Positions 1 to 19,553 of a DNA stretch of 64,000 nt are shown here, in pieces. Position 1 is the stretch's first letter. Every line of letters begins with the position of its first letter. Both the position numbers and the translations under genes were made by a program. Below the pieces are notes generated by a model. That model did no database searches and was not told the origin of the DNA. It worked only from the letters and a program-made list of their open reading frames with translations. The stretch is from Nocardioides marmorisolisilvae (GTDB lineage Bacteria; Actinomycetota; Actinomycetes; Propionibacteriales; Nocardioidaceae): contig NZ_CP134227.1 in the NCBI RefSeq assembly GCF_031656915.1, positions 3,720,001 to 3,784,000 of the forward strand, in the 5' to 3' direction.

Positions 1-489
1 GTTGCCGAAGGCGAAGGTGTTGGTGCGGTCGATGACGCCGTCGCCGTTGTCGTCCACTGTCTGCTGTTCGCTGGTTAGGTGGCCCTGCCGGTCGTAGTTG
101 GGCGTGTCGACAGCCGTGGAGGTCGGCCCCGGCCCGTCACCGTCCGAGTCGAAGGTGGACACCGTGTCGATGAGCTGGCCGCGAGCGTCGTACTCGGAGT
201 GACGGTCGCTCCGTTCGGTCACGGTGCCGGCCGCATCGGTGATCACCCGCGACTGACTCACCACGTGCCCCGAGGTGTCGTAGACGGTGGTGACCGTCGC
301 CCGCTGGACCCGTCCGTCCATGGCCTTGACGTCCGTGGTGGTGGTGACCACGGCCCCACGCAGCTCGGCCGGTGAGAGGGTGAGCGCCGCGTAGGGGTCC
401 GGAGTCGCTGACGCTGGCGCCATCGGAACGAGGAGAAGCGCGGCTGGCAGGACCGAGGCGAGGCGCAGCAAATTCCGACGGGCAGCCAT
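1..489 (-). CDS. Secreted YD-repeat-like protein, N-terminal part (continues beyond window)
   Basis: The frame is open from an ATG at 489 down to base 1, giving the first 163 residues. AGGAG sits just upstream of the ATG. The N-terminus (MAARRNLLRLASVLPAALLL, then VPMAPASA) is a signal peptide with an arginine pair and an ASA cleavage-like site. After it come degenerate repeats of the YDxxGxL type: YDTSGHVVSQ, YDARGQLIDT and YDRQGHLTSE, the last two followed by DSDGDG or DDNGDGVID. These resemble RHS/YD wall-protein repeats with calcium-binding-like DxDGDG insertions. A role as an exported, perhaps polymorphic, surface protein is inference, because the C-terminal part is outside the window. 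It is divergent from the LAL regulator. Confidence 0.6.
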   Translation of the reverse strand, partial: MAARRNLLRLASVLPAALLLVPMAPASATPDPYAALTLSPAELRGAVVTTTTDVKAMDGRVQRATVTTVYDTSGHVVSQSRVITDAAGTVTERSDRHSEYDARGQLIDTVSTFDSDGDGPGPTSTAVDTPNYDRQGHLTSEQQTVDDNGDGVIDRTNTFAFGN

Positions 490-508
490 GAGTGCTCCTG
501 CTTTCGTG

Positions 509-795
509 CCCGGCGCGGGTCGCCGGACACCTCCACCGTGGCCCGGAATCATCGGTAAGGGAACGTCGGGCACTACCGGGGTTTGCGCTTCCGGTACCGG
601 GTTTTCCGGCCGACCTCAGTGGGCGCATCGACTCCGGGCCAAACCGAGATGCATTCGGGTCAGCAGTGCATGTTGGTCGTGATCGGATCCCGGCGCGGGT
701 CGCCGCGCACCTCCACGGTGGCGTGGAGACATCGGAAAAGGGAAGGGCAGACACCACCGGTGTTTCCGGTGCCGACACTGGGGTTTTCTTGTGGT
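509..795. repeat. Imperfect direct duplication in the divergent upstream region
   Basis: Two copies of roughly 105 bp begin at 509 and 689, exactly 180 bp apart. Both start CCCGGCGCGGGTCGCCG and then carry ACCTCCAC(C/G)GTGG, ATCGG(T/A)AAGGGAA, an ACCGG tract and GGGTTTTC. The two copies drift apart downstream. Each contains the small palindrome CCAC-N-GTGG. The pair occupies most of the 408 bp between the YD-repeat gene (start 489) and the LAL regulator (start 898), so they may be duplicated promoter or operator modules. Confidence 0.6.
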
Positions 796-897
796 GTGAC
801 CTGTCCGAGGGGGACCGGTTCGGCGGTTTCCGAGACACGGTGCGCCCAGCGAGGCACAGTGGAAGCGTCTGTCGTCCTGTCACCCCAGGAGCTCCCG

Positions 898-3531
898 TTG
901 CACAGTCCGGTTCGATGTGTGCGCTACCGGGAGGTGAAGGTGATCGAGGGGGCTCTCGCGGCGGTCTCTGGTGGCACCTCGAAACTGGTCCTGGTCGAGG
1001 GTGGGATGGGCAGCGGCAAGACGGCGCTTCTAGCGGCGGCGGCCGAGGCGGCGACCAGGCTCGGTCTCCCCGTCATTCATCGGCGCGGAGACGAGTTCGA
1101 TCTCGGATCGCCCATTGCCGACTTGGAGCCGGAGCTCCATGCACACGACGGGGATGTCGCCATCGTGCTCCTCGTCGACGATGCGCACTGGATCGACTCC
1201 CGCTCCCTGCTTCGCCTGCGACGATGGGTTCAGGACGGTCCGGGCCACACCTGTATGGTCATCGCGGTCCGGGCGGCTGAGTTGGTGGGAACCTCCGAAC
1301 GCGTCATCCACGAGCTGATGGTGACCTCCGACGCCGAGGCGATTGAGCTGGCACCCCTCTGCCATGACTCCGCTGCGTCGCTCATCGCGGGGATCCGTGG
1401 GCGCCCGCCGTCATCCGAGGAAGCGCGGGAGTTGTGCACTCGGACGGGAGGCAATCCTTTCCTTCTGGCCGCAGTCGCGCAGGCTGACCACACCAATGCG
1501 TGCGCAGAGGTGCCGCGAGAGATCGTCCGCTGGGTGCGCACGGAGCTGACGCGGCAGGGTGATGACGCCGTGGTGCTCGCTCGGGCGGTGGCTGTGTTGG
1601 GGATGCATGCCTCGCTTCCCCACGCGGCGCGGGTCGCGCGGCTCTCGATCGAGGCTGCTGCCGAGGCGGCCGATGGTCTTGCGGTGGGCGAGATCCTGGC
1701 ACCGCCGTCCGCGGTGGGAGATCGGCTCGACTTCGTCGCGTCCGTGGTGCGGGAGGCGGTGCTGGTGGACATGCCGCCGTTCGGCCGAGCCGAGTTGCAC
1801 CACCGGTCGGCGGAGGTGCTGCACGGCGAGGGCGCACCAGCCGGTGACATCGCGACACATCTTCTGTCCTCGGTCTGCCGTGACGACGCGTGGGCCGCCG
1901 AGAGCCTGCTAAGCGCTGGTCGCCAGTGCAACGATGCAGGCGAGCCGACCAGGGCCATCGACCTGCTGCGTCGGGCGCTGGCCGAGCCGCCCCCGTCGGC
2001 CCTCACTGCGCAGGTGCTGCTCGAGCTGGGCCGTGCCGAGGCGTTGACCGGATCGGTCGACGCGGTGCAACGGCTGAGCCGGCTCATCGTGGGTGATTTC
2101 GACCCGGACATCCGGCGTACGGCGGCACGGTTGCTCGGTTCCTACAACTTCGCCGCCGGGCAGCCGGCGGAGGCCGGCCGGGCGTTCAACCAGGCCGTGG
2201 AGGAGGCCGCCGGGGCGGCGCCGGGAGGCCGCGGGGTCGAGATCGACCGGCTGGGGGCACTCTTCTTCGTCACCGAGAACCGTGTCGCCTTTGACCAGGA
2301 CGTCAGGGCCATCCTGGACTCGGCCCGCGAGCAGGGCTCGGCGCCCGAGCCCGGGCTGCTCGCCATATGGGCGTGCTGCCTGGCCGTTACCCGACAGGAT
2401 CGGGAAGCAGTGCGCATCGCCGCCGAGCAGGCGATGGCAGCGGGGCCTCTGCACGGCGCCCCTCCCTGGGACTGCGGGTTCTCCTGGGCCGTCGGGTCGC
2501 TGGTCTACAGCGATCACCTGTCCCTTGCGCGGCAGGTGATCGACGAGGTGTACGCCGACGTCGGGGAGGAGCCACCGCCGGCGACACTGGGCATGCTGCA
2601 GATGTGGCAGGCCATGGTGGCCTACCACGAGGGTCGTCTTCCTGAGGCCGCAGCGTATGCGAGAGCCGCGACGGACCTGGCCCGCGCCACTGGACTGCAC
2701 ATGTGGCTGCCGTGGAGTGCGACCTATGAGGTGCTGTGCGCCATCGAGGCCGACGAGCCCGCGCTGGCGCAGCGGGCACTCGATCTGGCTGTCGATCTCG
2801 ATGACACCATCCTCGGCGAGGCGTGCCTGCTCTTCGCCCGTGGTCGGCTGCAGCTGGAGTCCGACGATCCGATCCGCGCCCTAGAGACGTTCCGTGCCAC
2901 CGGCAGGAGTCTCGAGCGCAGCGGTCTCGATGATTGGCCGGAGGTCCCGTGGCGGCTCTGGGCCGCGCTGGCGGCCTCCGAGACGGGCGCTGACGGCGAG
3001 GCCGCGGCCCTGGCCGAGACCGAGCTCGCCGCCGCCCGCCGCTCGGGGGCGCCACGCCTGATCGGTGCAGCATTGCGCGCGGCCGGGCTGGTCAAGGGCG
3101 GAGGACTGGACCTACTAGAGGAGGCCGTTGCCGTCCTCGAGGAGACCTCGGCCCGGCTCGAACGGGTCCGGGCCCGCTGCGATCTCGGAGCGGCGCTGCG
3201 TACGGCAGATCGTGACGCCGAGGCGACCGCCATGCTCATGGAAGCGTTGGAGGAGGCCGAAGCCTGCGGCTCTAGGATCGTGGCTGCCCGGGCCCGCCGC
3301 GAGCTGCGTGCGCTCGGGCGGCGCCCTCGTCGGGCGGCCGTCTCGGGCCCGGCCTCCCTCACCTCCGCGGAAGCCAGGGTGGCCACCCTGGCTGCGCAGG
3401 GGCTGAGCAACGCGGCGGTCGCCGAGGTGCTGAGTGTCTCGGTACGCACCGTCGAGTGGCACCTGCGCTCGGTCTTCCGCAAGCTCGGCATCCGCGAGCG
3501 ATCAGCCCTCGGCCCCGTACTGCGCGACTAG
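898..3531 (+). CDS. Large ATP-binding LuxR-family (LAL) transcriptional regulator
   Basis: An 877-residue protein. A P-loop (GGMGSGKT, residues 35-42) and a Walker B segment (VAIVLLVDD, near residue 90) form an STAND/AAA ATPase domain. A long helical TPR-like middle follows. The last ~60 residues are a LuxR/FixJ helix-turn-helix (LTSAEARVATLAAQGLSN, then SVRTVEWHLRSVFRKLGI). This is the MalT/LAL layout, in which ATP and an inducer switch DNA binding. I chose the TTG at 898 because AGGAG lies six bases before it and because the P-loop then falls at the usual distance from the N-terminus. The frame is open further upstream, but that stretch is the duplicated non-coding region. The target is unknown; the divergent YD-repeat gene is a candidate. 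Confidence 0.85.
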   Translation: MHSPVRCVRYREVKVIEGALAAVSGGTSKLVLVEGGMGSGKTALLAAAAEAATRLGLPVIHRRGDEFDLGSPIADLEPELHAHDGDVAIVLLVDDAHWIDSRSLLRLRRWVQDGPGHTCMVIAVRAAELVGTSERVIHELMVTSDAEAIELAPLCHDSAASLIAGIRGRPPSSEEARELCTRTGGNPFLLAAVAQADHTNACAEVPREIVRWVRTELTRQGDDAVVLARAVAVLGMHASLPHAARVARLSIEAAAEAADGLAVGEILAPPSAVGDRLDFVASVVREAVLVDMPPFGRAELHHRSAEVLHGEGAPAGDIATHLLSSVCRDDAWAAESLLSAGRQCNDAGEPTRAIDLLRRALAEPPPSALTAQVLLELGRAEALTGSVDAVQRLSRLIVGDFDPDIRRTAARLLGSYNFAAGQPAEAGRAFNQAVEEAAGAAPGGRGVEIDRLGALFFVTENRVAFDQDVRAILDSAREQGSAPEPGLLAIWACCLAVTRQDREAVRIAAEQAMAAGPLHGAPPWDCGFSWAVGSLVYSDHLSLARQVIDEVYADVGEEPPPATLGMLQMWQAMVAYHEGRLPEAAAYARAATDLARATGLHMWLPWSATYEVLCAIEADEPALAQRALDLAVDLDDTILGEACLLFARGRLQLESDDPIRALETFRATGRSLERSGLDDWPEVPWRLWAALAASETGADGEAAALAETELAAARRSGAPRLIGAALRAAGLVKGGGLDLLEEAVAVLEETSARLERVRARCDLGAALRTADRDAEATAMLMEALEEAEACGSRIVAARARRELRALGRRPRRAAVSGPASLTSAEARVATLAAQGLSNAAVAEVLSVSVRTVEWHLRSVFRKLGIRERSALGPVLRD

Positions 3532-13968: not shown

Positions 13969-14297
13969 ACATCTGCCCCTCTCGCTCAGCTTCACGCGAA
14001 CTGTGGCACCGTGACAACCATCAGGCAAGAGGCGTTCCCCGGGCCGGATCTGCGCGGACGCCACCTGAACCGACGTGCGTTGTCATGCCGCGAACCGTGA
14101 GCGTGCGTCCCTCACCCAAGACGGTCAGGTCGTAGCGAGGCCACGTCGCAGATCCGATGGAGCGCGGCGAGTGGGTCGCGTCGGCCCGCCTCGCCAGCGG
14201 CCATGGCTCGGATCAGCATCTCCCGACTGAGCGGGCGCCGGCGTACTCTGGAAGGCACTCCCTCGGATGCGCGAGGGCTCTCGATTGGAGGGCTCCC
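13969..14297. other. Intergenic region upstream of the MreB-like gene, with a hairpin
   Basis: The region lies between divergent genes. A perfect 6-bp hairpin CCCTCG-GATGCG-CGAGGG at 14260-14277 lies in the probable 5' leader, ten bases before the GGAGG ribosome site of the MreB-like gene. A TACTCT hexamer near 14244 could be a -10. I see no reading frame that looks like a protein. Confidence 0.4.
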
Positions 14298-15308
14298 ATG
14301 ACCGGATTCGGTATCGATCTCGGCACGGCCAACACGGTCGTCTGCGACCAGAGACACGGCGTCGTCCTCGACGAGCCGTCGGTGATGGTCGTGCCCAACG
14401 CGCAGGGCCGCTCGAAGCGAGTCCATCCCTTGCTCGTGGGCACAGAGGCACGCGCGCTGATCGGTCGCTGCCCGGTCGGTCTGACCGCCGTACGACCACT
14501 ACGAGACGGCGTGATCGTGGATCTCGAAGCCGCCCGCGCCTTCGTCGTGGGCGTGCTCGGCAAGCTGTCGATGTCACGACGGATACGCCCTCACGCGGTC
14601 ATCGGTGTACCGGCAGGCGCCACCGCGCTCGAGCGTCGCGCGTTGCTCGAGGTCGCCGATGAGGCCGGCATCCGACGCGCCGCGCTGGTGCCCGAGCCGA
14701 TCGCCGGAGCCATGGGCTGCGGCATCGACCCGCTGGAGGCCCGCGCCCACATGGTGGTCGACGTCGGCGGGGGTACGTCGGAGGTGACGAGCTTCTGCTT
14801 CGGCGGGATCCTGTCCCATCGCTCCACCCGGGTCGCCGGTGACGAGATGACGCTGGCGCTCTACCACCACCTGCGTACCGAGCATCACCTCCTGGTCGGG
14901 GAGCTCACCGCCGAGGCACTCAAGTGCAGCCTCGCGACTGACGACGCGCTCTCGGCGGTGGTGCAGGGCATCGATCTCGCCACCGGCCGGCCCCGGTTGC
15001 TGACTCTGGACTCCGCAGAGGTGCTGGAGGCATTGCGGCCCACCGTGGAGACGATCATCGCCGATCTCGGAGGCGCGCTGGAGGACCTACCTCCTCAGGC
15101 GGCCGACGACATCTTGGAGGAGGGCATCACGGTCTTCGGCGGCTGCAGTCTGCTGCGCGGCTTCGACAAGCTGCTGGAGTCCTCCTTCGCCTTCCCGGTC
15201 AAGATGGCCGAACGGCCGCTGACCTGTGTGGCCGAGGGCGCAGCTCTGTGCCTGGCGAACCCCGCGGTGCACCACGCCTTCGAGAACGCCTTCATCGAGG
15301 CCGCCTGA
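14298..15308 (+). CDS. MreB/Mbl-like actin homologue
   Basis: 336 residues, close to MreB length. The actin/Hsp70 phosphate loops are present: phosphate-1 GIDLGTANTVV, the interdomain segment PEPIAGAMGCGIDP, phosphate-2 MVVDVGGGTSEVTSF and the adenosine motif ITVFGGCSLLRGFDKLL. MreB filaments organise the elongation machinery, normally with RodA and PBP2. GGAGG at 14287-14291 precedes ATG 14298. It converges on a gene coding a fused RodA-PBP2, which supports a cell-wall role. Several residues differ from canonical MreB, so it may be a divergent accessory paralogue (inference). Confidence 0.85.
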   Translation: MTGFGIDLGTANTVVCDQRHGVVLDEPSVMVVPNAQGRSKRVHPLLVGTEARALIGRCPVGLTAVRPLRDGVIVDLEAARAFVVGVLGKLSMSRRIRPHAVIGVPAGATALERRALLEVADEAGIRRAALVPEPIAGAMGCGIDPLEARAHMVVDVGGGTSEVTSFCFGGILSHRSTRVAGDEMTLALYHHLRTEHHLLVGELTAEALKCSLATDDALSAVVQGIDLATGRPRLLTLDSAEVLEALRPTVETIIADLGGALEDLPPQAADDILEEGITVFGGCSLLRGFDKLLESSFAFPVKMAERPLTCVAEGAALCLANPAVHHAFENAFIEAA

Positions 15309-15332: not shown

Positions 15333-18227
15333 CTACCTTCCCGTGCGCAGAATCGCGGCCCGGTGGGCGAAGAAGTACTCCATCGCGGGCAGCACCACCC
15401 GGCCGGAGGTGGTGACGCCCTCGCCACCACCACGCACGAAGCCAGTGGCCACAATGTCGGGTCGGTGCAACGGAGCGGCGGCGGTGAACCACGAGTCGGT
15501 GCCACCGCTGGGTGCGGCCGGATCCTGCGCCGAGCCGGTCTTTCCGCCGGCGGCGACCGGGAGCGCGGCCAGGATGGATGCCGTGCCACTCGTCGCGGCG
15601 GCCCGCATCCCGGCACGGACGAGGCCGAGCTTGTCGGCGAAGGACAGTGGATGCGCGCCCGGCATCGGCAGCCGCGTGAACCCGCTGCCGCTCCGATAGG
15701 AGAGGCCGAGGTGCGGCGTCACGAGCGCGCCGGTGGTGACGCCCGCGGTCCACAGGGCGTCCTGCAGGGGAGTGACGTCGAGGTAGCCCTGACCGATCCC
15801 GAGGACCACGGTCGAGCCCGGGTACCAGGTGCCGCCGGCCTTCGCCACGCTGCTCGGCGTACCCAGGAAGCCGCTGGACTCCCCGGGCAGGTCGATGCCG
15901 GTGGCGGCGCCCACGCCGAGTTGGCGTGCGGTGGTGATGATCGGCTGCGGGCCCATCGCCCAGGCGAGCTGGTAGAAGTACACGTCGTTCGACCACGCCA
16001 GCGCCTGCACGAGGTTCTGCGGCGGCAGCACCATCCAGTTGTGGAAGGTGTGATCGCCCAGTGTCCAGGAGCCGCCGGTCGGGATCACCTCCTCCGGTTG
16101 GATCGCCGGATGCTTGAGATCCGCCGAGGCGACCACGAGCTTGAAGGTCGAGCCGGGTGGCGCCACCACCTGAGTGACGTGCTCCAGCACCGGGTTGCCC
16201 TGCTGTTTCGACAGTGTCGCGAGGGCGCGCTGGTGCACCGGCGGGCCGAACACGTTGTCGTCGTACGACGGCAGGCTGGCCATCGCATAGACCTGACCGT
16301 TCTTGGGATTCATCACCACGGCGCCGCCCAGGTCGCCGCGCGGCTGGCCAGGCTCGCCCCTCAGGGCGCTGGCCAGCTGCCGGGTGAGCTCGCGCTGGAG
16401 GCCGAGGTCGAGCGTCAGTCGCAGACGACTGCCGGGCACCGGCGGGGTGGAGGGCCCCATCGCGACCGGCCGTCCCGCCGGATCGACGTACACGCACTGC
16501 CTGCCGTCCCGACCGCGCAGGATCGGGTCGTAGGTCTCCTCCAATCCGGTTCGGCCGACGATCGCACCGGAGGGCAGGTCAGGCCAGCGCTTGACGTCTG
16601 CGGGCGTTGCCACTCCCGTCCAGCCCAGGACCGGACCGAGCAGCGCGCCCTCGGGATACACCCGCCGGGTCGTCGGCGCGAGGAACACGCCAGCCAGATG
16701 GGCTGCTCGTACCCGGGCCGCCGTCGCTGGCGGCAGTGTGGCGACGACCACCGTCAGTCCGTGCGCCCGGTGCAGCTGCCGGACGACCGCGGTCCGGCTG
16801 CGCGCGGTGAGGGCGGCCAAGGTGCGGACCTGGGCCGATCGCACCAGCGCGGGCACGGCGTCCACCTGCTCCTGGCGTACATCGATGGCAAGCGGGGCGC
16901 CGTGCCGGTCGGTGATCTCGCCGCGGGGCGCGGGGATCCGCACGCATCGCATCATCTGGGTCAGGCCCGCGCGCCTGAGCTGGGGGCCGTGATCGGCCTG
17001 CAGGTTCCATGCGAAACCGGTCATCGCCATCAGGCAGCCGGTCACCAGCAGCGCGGCCGGGCCGAGCAGCCGGGGCAGCTGAGGCATCTGCCGGTGCCAC
17101 AGCCGGTGCTTCTCGCCCTCGGCGCGCAGCCCGAGCACCAGTCCCAGGGTGGCGATGTGCACCGCGGCCGCCGTACCTCCGTAGCTGAGCAGCGGGAAGG
17201 GAACACCTGCGGTCGGGATCAGCCCAAGGTTTCCCGCGACTGAGACGACCACCTCGATGCCCACCAGCGCCGCAAAGCCCCCGGCGGTCAACCCTGCGGT
17301 CCGCGTGCGGGCGTGCCGAGCCGACAGCACGACGCGCCAGATCAGCACTGCCGCAGCCAGCACGGCCACGACGCCCGCGATCATGCCGTGCTGTTCGACC
17401 AGGCTGGCGAAGGCGAGGTCGGTCTCGCGGTCGGGCAGGTACTCGGAGACGAGCGCATGCAAGTGTCCGGCTCCGTGGCCGGTCAACCCACCCCAGGCCA
17501 GCGCGATGTGCATCTGCAGGATCGCCCAGCCCGGGCCGTTGGCGCTGGTCGACCCGCTGAGGAACGCATGGAGCCGATCCGCCTGGTAGGGACGCAGCAG
17601 GTGCTCGCCAAGCGGGGCAGCGAGGGCGGCGACGAGGACAAAGCCGCCGAGCACGCGCAGCGGAATGCGACCGATCACCAGCATCGCCACCGTGACCCCG
17701 CAGAGAACGGCCGCAGTCGACAGGTCGGGCTCGTTGACCACGAGCCCGATCGGTATGACTGAGACGACGAGCGCTGCCCCGAGCCGTCGTCGCCAGCCCC
17801 GCTCGGTGGCCAGCACCTGGGCCAGCACGAGCAGCATCCCGAGCTTGGCCAGCTCCGAGGGCTGCACGGTCAGCGAGTCGAGGGCGAGCCAGCGCCGCGC
17901 GCCGTTGACCGACTCACCCACGGCGACCACGGCCAGCAGCAGCACCACACTGACCAGGTAGCAGCTCCAGCCCAGCCACCGAAGGCCGTCCGCCCGCAGG
18001 CGTCGTAGCCAACAGAACAGCGCTACGCCGGCGAGGTCGACTGCGACCTGGTGATAGAGGATCGAACGGTCACCGAGCGACTGGAGGTTGAGCAGACCGA
18101 GGCCGACGAGGACGGCAACCGCCAGTACGGCGGGTACGTCGGGTGCTGCCCTCGGCCGGTGCACGAGCCTGTCCAGCCCGGCGTGTGCCCGGGGCGGCCC
18201 GCTCAATCCACGCTCGACGCTCAGCAC
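15333..18227 (-). CDS. SEDS (RodA/FtsW) glycosyltransferase fused to a PBP2-like transpeptidase
   Basis: One uninterrupted 964-residue frame. Residues ~30-370 are a multi-pass SEDS protein with GESVNGARRWL, QPSELAKLG, the PDRETDLAF loop (Asp270 as candidate catalytic acid) and PFPLLSYGG. Residues ~388-408 are a further TM helix. Then comes a class B PBP: APRGEITDRHGAPLA (dimerisation domain start) and a transpeptidase with S693-T-F-K696, S746-N-D ending in DVYFYQ, and K896-T-G. The S-x-D...YFYQ form is PBP2-like, so this is a RodA-PBP2 rather than FtsW-PBP3 pair. It should polymerise and crosslink peptidoglycan in one chain. The GTG start at 18227 is six bases after the upstream gene's stop. 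Confidence 0.92.
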   Translation of the reverse strand: MLSVERGLSGPPRAHAGLDRLVHRPRAAPDVPAVLAVAVLVGLGLLNLQSLGDRSILYHQVAVDLAGVALFCWLRRLRADGLRWLGWSCYLVSVVLLLAVVAVGESVNGARRWLALDSLTVQPSELAKLGMLLVLAQVLATERGWRRRLGAALVVSVIPIGLVVNEPDLSTAAVLCGVTVAMLVIGRIPLRVLGGFVLVAALAAPLGEHLLRPYQADRLHAFLSGSTSANGPGWAILQMHIALAWGGLTGHGAGHLHALVSEYLPDRETDLAFASLVEQHGMIAGVVAVLAAAVLIWRVVLSARHARTRTAGLTAGGFAALVGIEVVVSVAGNLGLIPTAGVPFPLLSYGGTAAAVHIATLGLVLGLRAEGEKHRLWHRQMPQLPRLLGPAALLVTGCLMAMTGFAWNLQADHGPQLRRAGLTQMMRCVRIPAPRGEITDRHGAPLAIDVRQEQVDAVPALVRSAQVRTLAALTARSRTAVVRQLHRAHGLTVVVATLPPATAARVRAAHLAGVFLAPTTRRVYPEGALLGPVLGWTGVATPADVKRWPDLPSGAIVGRTGLEETYDPILRGRDGRQCVYVDPAGRPVAMGPSTPPVPGSRLRLTLDLGLQRELTRQLASALRGEPGQPRGDLGGAVVMNPKNGQVYAMASLPSYDDNVFGPPVHQRALATLSKQQGNPVLEHVTQVVAPPGSTFKLVVASADLKHPAIQPEEVIPTGGSWTLGDHTFHNWMVLPPQNLVQALAWSNDVYFYQLAWAMGPQPIITTARQLGVGAATGIDLPGESSGFLGTPSSVAKAGGTWYPGSTVVLGIGQGYLDVTPLQDALWTAGVTTGALVTPHLGLSYRSGSGFTRLPMPGAHPLSFADKLGLVRAGMRAAATSGTASILAALPVAAGGKTGSAQDPAAPSGGTDSWFTAAAPLHRPDIVATGFVRGGGEGVTTSGRVVLPAMEYFFAHRAAILRTGR

Positions 18228-18233
18228 GGGGGC

Positions 18234-19553
18234 TCACCGCGACCGTCCGCAGTGCGCGGGTCCGGCCGGCACCAGCACCGGCGGTGACTGGGTACGTGCC
18301 GGACTCGTCGTCTCGGCGACCAGCGCCAAGGAGTGCGCGTGCGGCAGCGACACGCTCGTCGGGGCGAAGACCCTGGTCCAGCCGGGGTCGGGTGCCATGG
18401 TCGTCGCCGGGACCCAGCGGGCAGTACCACGACAACGGTTCACGATGCCGATCCGCCAGCGCACGACCTCGCCGGCGACGGCGGGCTGCAGCAGCACGGT
18501 GACCTGGATCGGACACGCCATGCCCGGTGCGCAGGTGGCCAGCTGCTTGACAGTCGTCCCGGTGACCGCGCCGGCCGACGCCGGGGCGAAGGTCCGCAAC
18601 GGTCGCGGTGTCTTCGCCGCCCTGCGAGGCACGACCGTGGGCTGGGACGGGGTCGGCGAGGGCGGGGTGACCGCTGTCGAGGCGGCCGAGTCGCCACGCA
18701 ACCGGGCAAGCTGCCCGCCGGGCCCCAGCACGATCGCCGCCGCGACCACGAGCATCAGCGCGGCGAGGGTGACGAGCAGCCTGCGCCGGGTGCGGTGACG
18801 CAGCCCCTTCCAGCCGCGGCGGCGCCAGGGCTGGGCGCGCAGCGTGACCATCGGATCGGCCAGGTGTCCCGGTGCGGTCTGGGTCGGGTAGGGCGACCGA
18901 TGGGGAGGGTCGATGCGGCCGAACGCGCGGACCAGCGCGGACAGCTCGTGGCGAAGCCGCTCGGCGTCGGCGGCGCCGCTGCCCTGCTGGAGAGCGAGGG
19001 CCGCGCGCAGTCGATGCGCCGCGGTGGCCGACTCGAACAGCTCCTCCTCGGCGATCCCTTCCAGGGTGCGCAGCAGCAACGCAGCCTCGGCGGGGCGACG
19101 TGCCATCCCGCTGCGGGTGTTGCCCAGCAGGAGCTCCGCCACTCCCCGGGCTGCGGCAAGGTCTGCCTCCGGTGAGGACGATGCGGGCGTTGTCTCGGCC
19201 GCCCAGTCCACCTCACCATCCCCGGAGACCGTGAGGGTCTCGGCCGAGGGCACCGGCCCGCGGCCGTTGTGCGCGTGCCGGCTGGCCAACAGCCCGAATA
19301 TCTCGGCGGCCAGGAAGACCGCTTGGTACGGCGTGAGCACTGCCACCCGAAGCAGCTGGCCGAGGCGTACGACGGGCACCGGCGGTCCGGCCGGTTCCTC
19401 GGTGAGCCGGGTCTGCTGCACCGGCAGCACGAAACCGTCTGCGAGCCCACCCTGCGGAGGTGGGAGAACCTCGTGCGCCACGCGATCACCAGCCTCAGAA
19501 ACCGACAACCGAACCAGTCGCCTGGCCGAGAGTGCGCACCAAGGGGCGACCAC
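18234..19553 (-). CDS. Single-pass membrane protein of unknown function, upstream of the SEDS-PBP fusion
   Basis: 439 residues; I do not recognise the family. The cytoplasmic N-terminal part (~1-270) is helical and charged. It contains LTPYQAVFLAAEIFGLLASR and an ALLLRTLEGIAEEELFESAT segment. An arginine-rich stretch (RRRGWKGLRHRTRRR) precedes one TM helix (LLVTLAALMLVVAAAIVLGP, ~280-300). Then come a Pro/Ser/Thr linker and an outside domain with four cysteines (TCAPGMACPIQVTVLLQPAV, VNRCRGTARW, HCGRSR). The end is six bases before the SEDS-PBP start, so the two are co-transcribed and may work together. The start is uncertain. Confidence 0.6.
   Translation of the reverse strand: MVAPWCALSARRLVRLSVSEAGDRVAHEVLPPPQGGLADGFVLPVQQTRLTEEPAGPPVPVVRLGQLLRVAVLTPYQAVFLAAEIFGLLASRHAHNGRGPVPSAETLTVSGDGEVDWAAETTPASSSPEADLAAARGVAELLLGNTRSGMARRPAEAALLLRTLEGIAEEELFESATAAHRLRAALALQQGSGAADAERLRHELSALVRAFGRIDPPHRSPYPTQTAPGHLADPMVTLRAQPWRRRGWKGLRHRTRRRLLVTLAALMLVVAAAIVLGPGGQLARLRGDSAASTAVTPPSPTPSQPTVVPRRAAKTPRPLRTFAPASAGAVTGTTVKQLATCAPGMACPIQVTVLLQPAVAGEVVRWRIGIVNRCRGTARWVPATTMAPDPGWTRVFAPTSVSLPHAHSLALVAETTSPARTQSPPVLVPAGPAHCGRSR

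Follow-up and report, generated by a model that had tools for sequence, protein, structure and literature searches.

A 64,000-nucleotide stretch of the Nocardioides marmorisolisilvae genome (contig NZ_CP134227.1, positions 3,720,001 to 3,784,000; hereafter the window) encodes a natural fusion of an elongation-type SEDS glycosyltransferase with a complete class B penicillin-binding protein (PBP), with catalytic residues intact in both halves. The fusion gene is flanked by a divergent MreB paralogue, here named MreB2, and by a gene for a single-span membrane protein. Our favoured reading, to which comparison of the sequences lends a probability of about 0.62, is that the three genes constitute a compact Rod-like elongation module in which MreB2, a membrane regulator and a one-chain RodA-PBP2 would act together, beside or without the canonical MreBCD system. 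The co-occurrence of the three genes, combined with genomes of a second family (f89) that carry MreB2 but no MreC, makes this the simplest reading. The fusion alone is of an already known kind, and we regard the three-gene set kept in two families as the new part.

The fusion protein

The fusion gene occupies 15333..18227 on the minus strand, running from a GTG start at 18227 to a stop at 15333, and encodes 964 amino acids; the plus strand as read holds stops. The initial annotation, which left the strand unstated, had described a single unbroken frame over this interval, and the open reading frame (ORF) is indeed continuous. From Pfam matches and alignment, the SEDS glycosyltransferase domain spans residues 54-369 (17121..18068) and includes the PDRETD motif (265-270) with catalytic Asp270 at 17418-17420. 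An inter-domain linker of ~17 residues (about 370-386; 17070..17120), placed by alignment and by the frames of relatives, precedes a hydrophobic PBP anchor helix identified by hydropathy scan (about 387-405; 17013..17069), and lies close to the junction near 17050 that had been indicated previously. There follow the PBP dimerisation/pedestal domain (residues 431-588; 16464..16937) and the transpeptidase domain (residues 634-945; 15393..16328), the latter containing STFK (693-696) with Ser693, SND (746-748) followed by VYFYQ, and KTG (896-898).

The Pfam scores place both halves within their families. FTSW_RODA_SPOVE (PF01098) matches residues 54-369 with 219.8 bits against a cut-off of 26.4, as expected for a SEDS protein, while PBP_dimer (83 bits, cut-off 24.4) and Transpeptidase (138.9 bits, cut-off 22.1), together with the SxxK, SxN/D and KTG motifs, identify the C-terminal half as a class B PBP. 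Alignment with the Escherichia coli MG1655 enzymes supports the motifs as originally assigned: RodA D262 aligns with D270 of the fusion, and PBP2 S330/K333, S387/D389 and K544/S545/G546 correspond to S693/K696, S746/D748 and K896/T897/G898. D270 is invariant among 16 aligned fusions, as are the other catalytic residues with the exception of the third SxD residue, which is D or N. Elsewhere in the SEDS half, the SYGG sequence reads SQGG in fusions L051 and L053.

A profile built from 13 fusions matches the chains of the RodA-PBP2 complex 8TJ3 (MrdA chain C, 3.8e-58; MrdB chain B, 6.3e-47) ahead of FtsI (1e-28) and FtsW (7.9e-34). This ranking indicates an elongation-type pair, as the initial annotation had proposed, and the presence of both domains in one chain fixes the 1:1 stoichiometry that it had also put forward. 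Its further proposal, an orientation set by the joining helix, is conjectural. An assembly slip or frameshift as the origin of the frame is ruled out, since the genome is a single contig of 4,228,226 bases and the fusion recurs without internal stops in 12 further genomes of the window's family at 65-68% identity.

Distribution and ancestry

The actinobacterial survey that had been suggested for the fusion found further members. Counting the window's own, full-length homologues are present in 13 of the 341 genomes sampled from its family. Within the genus the window's genome is the only carrier (1/24), the order sample contains nine carriers among 391 genomes, every one in the window's family, and the class sample contains six among 394, three of which belong to f89 with 48-50% identity. 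Across the phylum sample (296 genomes), the window's genome gave the only full-length match among the matches listed. One fusion member lies on contig JAFMQY010000052.1, titled Nocardioides sp. As the phylum-to-genus surveys drew on the matches listed at E limits of 1e-30 to 1e-60 and scored few candidates per genome (all of them in the genus search only), they may overlook fusions whose sequences are of another type. The L050 fusion was taken from residue 37, as the usual start codon was not found further up. In G933 the frame is unbroken for 958 residues; the two stops reported there reflect a match that continues beyond the C-terminal stop.

Three Rhodococcus plasmids, pRB29, pRWAY03 and R79 unnamed4, also carry the fusion (46-48% identity over 92-94% of the query), in each case annotated as one FtsW/RodA/SpoVE coding sequence. 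The other plasmid matches listed with >80% coverage consist of two or three pieces, with separate mrdA and mrdB where annotated. On these large plasmids, genes for multicopper oxidase and metal transporters occur within 9 kb at L062 and L063, and arsenic genes at about 7 kb at L064.

In trees of 48 SEDS rows and 53 PBP rows, 19 fusions form one clade with support of 100/100, and the Shimodaira-Hasegawa-like approximate likelihood ratio test (SH-aLRT) gives the fusion clade 100 in a quicker PBP tree. Both halves divide in the same way, separating the window's family from f89 together with Rhodococcus. As both halves form a single clade in all 19, one fusion event would be the simplest reading of their ancestry. 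The fusions stand apart from the host's own RodA and PBP2 on a long branch of their own, whose attachment among the unfused proteins has weak supports. For want of a profile match at 1e-8, the trees do not include host PBP loci L009-L011, and repeated rows were omitted (L006 and L007 from the SEDS set; L001 and L003 from the PBP set). The non-synonymous rate (dN) is below the synonymous rate (dS) in all six pairs measured, in both halves and in the stretch comprising linker and helix; for L054/L057 the dN/dS values are 0.064/0.387 in the SEDS half and 0.038/0.325 in the PBP half.

MreB2 and the upstream membrane protein

MreB2 lies on the plus strand at 14298..15308, within an ORF that opens at 14157 and for which 14298 is proposed as the start codon position. 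It and the fusion converge across a gap of 24 bp. MreB2 belongs to the MreB family: it scores 298.6 bits against PF06723 (cut-off 27) and contains the actin-core motifs, with those for phosphate and adenosine that mark actin-fold ATPases retained. In NCBIfam, NF010539 is exceeded (299.4 over 293), but TIGR00904 gives 285.6, below its cut-off of 365.75. The divergent sequence is 39% identical to the host's own MreB and 38% to E. coli MreB, and 58% identical to a copy from f89. All ten MreB2 rows in the tree fall in one clade. For L084-L087 and L093 (5 of 15 MreB2 loci) the motif filter gave no full ORF, and the G539 MreB2 has no locus.

The upstream gene occupies 18234..19481 on the minus strand, the GTG start at 19481 being proposed from alignment within an ORF that extends to 19553. 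This ORF of 439 amino acids stops 6 bp before the GTG start of the fusion. At E 0.001 its product has no match in Pfam or NCBIfam, and a search for a solved-structure relative by sequence gave a best E of 0.39. A structural model from 14 sequences (mean predicted local distance difference test score, pLDDT, 73; folded parts mostly 75-95) suggests a helical domain (~35-191), a membrane helix (229-252), a disordered segment (255-303) and a beta-sandwich (304-411), predicted to be extracellular, with conserved cysteines. The alignment of upstream proteins is without L066 and L050, for which the filter gave no ORF; both have tblastn matches. A RodZ identity for this protein lacks Pfam support, since neither a RodZ nor a helix-turn-helix family appears, at E up to 1, among the 14 upstream proteins; that the VIA-align structural list contains no RodZ-type folds is not evidence on this point.

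The three-gene set

Plasmids apart, all 16 fusion genomes have MreB2 (277-300 bits) facing the fusion, in most of them at a distance of about 100 bases or less from the fusion match, and the upstream protein is likewise found in all 16: by tblastn at 12 of 12 loci of the window's family, by ORF and alignment at L048, and in the three f89 genomes. The surroundings are not conserved to the same extent. In a looser neighbour screen, which misses some upstream-protein pairs, the window has no ORF in common with eight other loci outside the three genes, and 13 of 15 locus pairs of the window's family have no common neighbour ORF, with one match each for L012/L103 and L102/L103. The three f89 loci have flanks in common with one another.

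The relationship of the set to the canonical Rod genes differs between the two families. MreC and a canonical MreB scoring 495 to 510 bits are encoded in all 13 fusion genomes of the window's family; in one of the fusion genomes, G539, the canonical set is doubled in a genome that is 9% contaminated. In the f89 genomes G933, G869 and G999 (L080, L081 and L082), MreB2 is the sole strong MreB, with no other hit above 64 bits, and MreC (PF04085) has no match in any of the three. Where PF04085 is present, in 13 genomes, MreC is always far from the fusion or on another contig. As MreC is thus apart from the fusion or absent, the module falls outside the canonical Rod (MreBCD) class.

Proposed function and alternatives

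In the mechanism that we propose, lipid II would be polymerised by the RodA-like N-terminal domain and the strand passed on to a PBP2-like transpeptidase at the C terminus, which the short cytoplasmic linker and the PBP anchor helix would keep next to the polymerase. MreB2 would replace MreB as the cytoplasmic filament that orients the synthase, and the upstream single-span protein, its gene probably cotranscribed with the fusion, would connect the filament with the synthase and act as a wall sensor, taking over from RodZ/MreC. Within the window's genome such a module would be additional to canonical MreBCD-PBP2-RodA and would probably serve a special growth state or site, while in the lineage without MreC (f89) it would be the only MreB-guided system. 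It is established that RodA-type SEDS proteins act with their PBP in polymerising lipid II, and according to PMC6207328 and PMC10449877 engineered RodA-PBP2 fusions of the same order, with linkers of 12 and 8 residues, are active, one having largely restored rod shape. Given these engineered precedents and the ~17 residues here, the topology and spacing are consistent with a working synthase. A more specific form of the proposal, in which ~5 kb encode an MreB-guided wall-synthesis machine of divergent MreB, pseudokinase-like transmembrane scaffold and one-chain synthase that works without MreC and has been passed between actinobacterial lineages, one of them otherwise without MreB, is attractive but tentative, and we consider it rather more doubtful than probable.

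Several observations weigh against a dedicated module of this kind. The three Rhodococcus plasmid loci lack MreB2 beside the fusion, save for one insignificant match (L064, E 0.018); the best plasmid MreB among the matches listed is 41-42% identical and not from Rhodococcus, and the only trace of the upstream protein is on R79, 40 residues just before the fusion (E 0.004). The fusion can therefore persist without the module, which is the principal fact against our reading. In G501, G869 and G933, MreB2 is about 0.9 to 1.5 kb from the fusion rather than adjoining it, and the patchy spread within the genus may mean loss as well as transfer. The best NCBIfam models for the fusion, pbp2_mrdA (363.1 bits) and rodA_shape (234.4 bits), both fall below equivalog cut-offs (455 for TIGR03423, PBP2/MrdA; 336.7 for TIGR02210, RodA), and the halves are for this reason named RodA-like and PBP2-like. 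The AlphaFold model of the fusion, from 13 sequences, has a pLDDT of 34.5, and nothing was taken from it. The role of the upstream protein is also subject to caution. The ten best VIA-align rows for its helical domain are KIND domains and protein kinases, and the cytoplasmic domain may resemble a KIND or kinase C-lobe, a lead that depends on one predicted model of pLDDT 73. Spire KIND (3rbw) aligns to that model over 145 residues with Z 13.6 and a root mean square deviation of 3.7, close to the helical-domain values (up to about 13-14) that the tool warns can be unspecific. By hhalign, upstream residues 39-96 align with the stretch before and across the catalytic loop of two host kinases, a weak match (probability 7.4%; E 0.0048 for a single comparison). 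For the beta domain, VIA-align (Foldseek was also run) returns immunoglobulin, FN3 and arrestin-like sandwiches with Z about 8-10, which are not specific.

The plasmid copies without MreB2, together with the canonical Rod genes retained in the window's genome, would fit an accessory SEDS-PBP synthase acting on its own (a spare for stress or one tolerant of beta-lactams, for instance), with MreB2 and the membrane gene as old neighbours rather than partners. We consider this unlikely, as the fusion is accompanied by MreB2 and the upstream gene in all 16 genomes across two families, the window's other neighbours are common to none of the eight loci compared, and MreB2 is 58% identical between the families. 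The cell-wall genes of the host bear on a further explanation, namely a recent duplication of its own RodA and PBP2 followed by chance fusion: the same enzyme types are separately encoded in the genome, but profiles of the fusion give the host RodA 157 bits and the host PBP2 142 bits, less than the maxima of 196 and 253 bits that these proteins reach in other actinobacterial families, the fusions occupy their own long branch, and the order RodA then PBP2 is the reverse of that in the host mre cluster. Such a duplication is highly improbable. We give similarly little credence to the suggestion that the protein is translated as one chain and then cut in the linker, or is inactive, which would make the fusion functionally meaningless. 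PMC6207328 describes an engineered E. coli RodA-PBP2 fusion that undergoes minor cleavage, yet here the linker remains in frame in 16 aligned fusions and three f89 frames, dN is below dS across linker and helix, and the catalytic residues vary only by the D/N exchange in SxD.

Relation to known systems

The initial annotation, which noted that SEDS proteins and their PBP partners are normally separate, overstated the novelty of the fusion. Separate partners are what the RodA-PBP2 complex (8TJ3, 6PL5) contains, with the same domain types and catalytic residues in two proteins rather than one, the halves here lying below the RodA/MrdA equivalog cut-offs. Natural single-ORF SEDS-PBP fusions are, however, already reported in one sentence of PMC10449877, citing the Rhodococcus RHA1 genome paper, and in the literature searched (subscription papers being outside it) that sentence, in the portion of the paper available, was the only account found of such fusions. 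The fusion it reports is likewise one ORF, and the Rhodococcus plasmid fusions are of the same family as the window's. The difference lies in the company kept: the available portion makes no mention of an MreB paralogue or membrane partner, and the plasmid copies have no adjoining MreB2. No description of the three-gene module was found in the same literature.

The module resembles the canonical MreBCD-RodZ-RodA-PBP2 elongasome in combining an MreB, a single-span protein and a SEDS-class B PBP synthase. It differs in that MreC is elsewhere or absent, the single-span protein has no RodZ-type Pfam domain and the MreB is divergent. In the Streptomyces spore-wall synthesising complex, PBP2 and the SEDS protein are separate. 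The MviN pseudokinase of mycobacteria has a kinase-like fold, a single span and an outer beta domain. The likeness of MviN and of the Spire KIND to the upstream protein is one of fold, seen in the predicted model, and does not extend to a firm sequence relationship. According to PMC4416010, the Streptomyces complex is also an actinobacterial elongasome-like system for a special wall.

Were the proposal to hold, the module would represent a minimal Rod system, one that reveals which components the coupling of an actin filament to wall synthesis requires, and would suggest that a chain combining polymerase and cross-linker makes MreC dispensable. Structural biologists would gain a native 1:1 RodA-PBP2 chain, and f89, a lineage without other MreB, would allow MreB function to be tested cleanly. 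According to PMC3296230 and PMC8262863, mycobacteria and corynebacteria have no MreB and grow at the poles.

Other cell-wall genes and minor observations

Loss of separate copies, which had been anticipated alongside the fusion, is not seen. The window's genome has four SEDS matches and seven transpeptidase-domain matches, the fusion included in each. Judged by position and neighbours, one of the three unfused SEDS proteins is probably the RodA of the mre cluster, which adjoins a PBP at 1.32 Mb. Another would be an FtsW of dcw type, which shares the region around the contig ends with FtsI, and the third, at 2.83 Mb with PbpA and kinase ORFs, is probably the RodA of a kinase cluster. The 1.32-Mb cluster contains a canonical MreB (495.2 bits) and MreC (119.6 bits), with ORFs that match MreD, PBP2 and RodA in size and order, and its presence indicates that a separate elongation pair has been retained.

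A viral origin of the fusion was considered and rejected: no relative was confirmed in viral_contigs, and none of the 69 phage records with a match reaches 80% query coverage. The phage matches, among those listed, are PBP pieces. Elsewhere, PBP2-like matches in L042 (G207:C2), G037, G095 and G180 cross a single TAG, and those in G207 and G037 have an alignment that begins within the SEDS part; the matches may be adjacent gene pairs. At L012, a Nocardioides metagenome-assembled genome, an ORF for a lipoprotein-type PBP (195-2102, minus strand) lies about 4 kb from the cassette.

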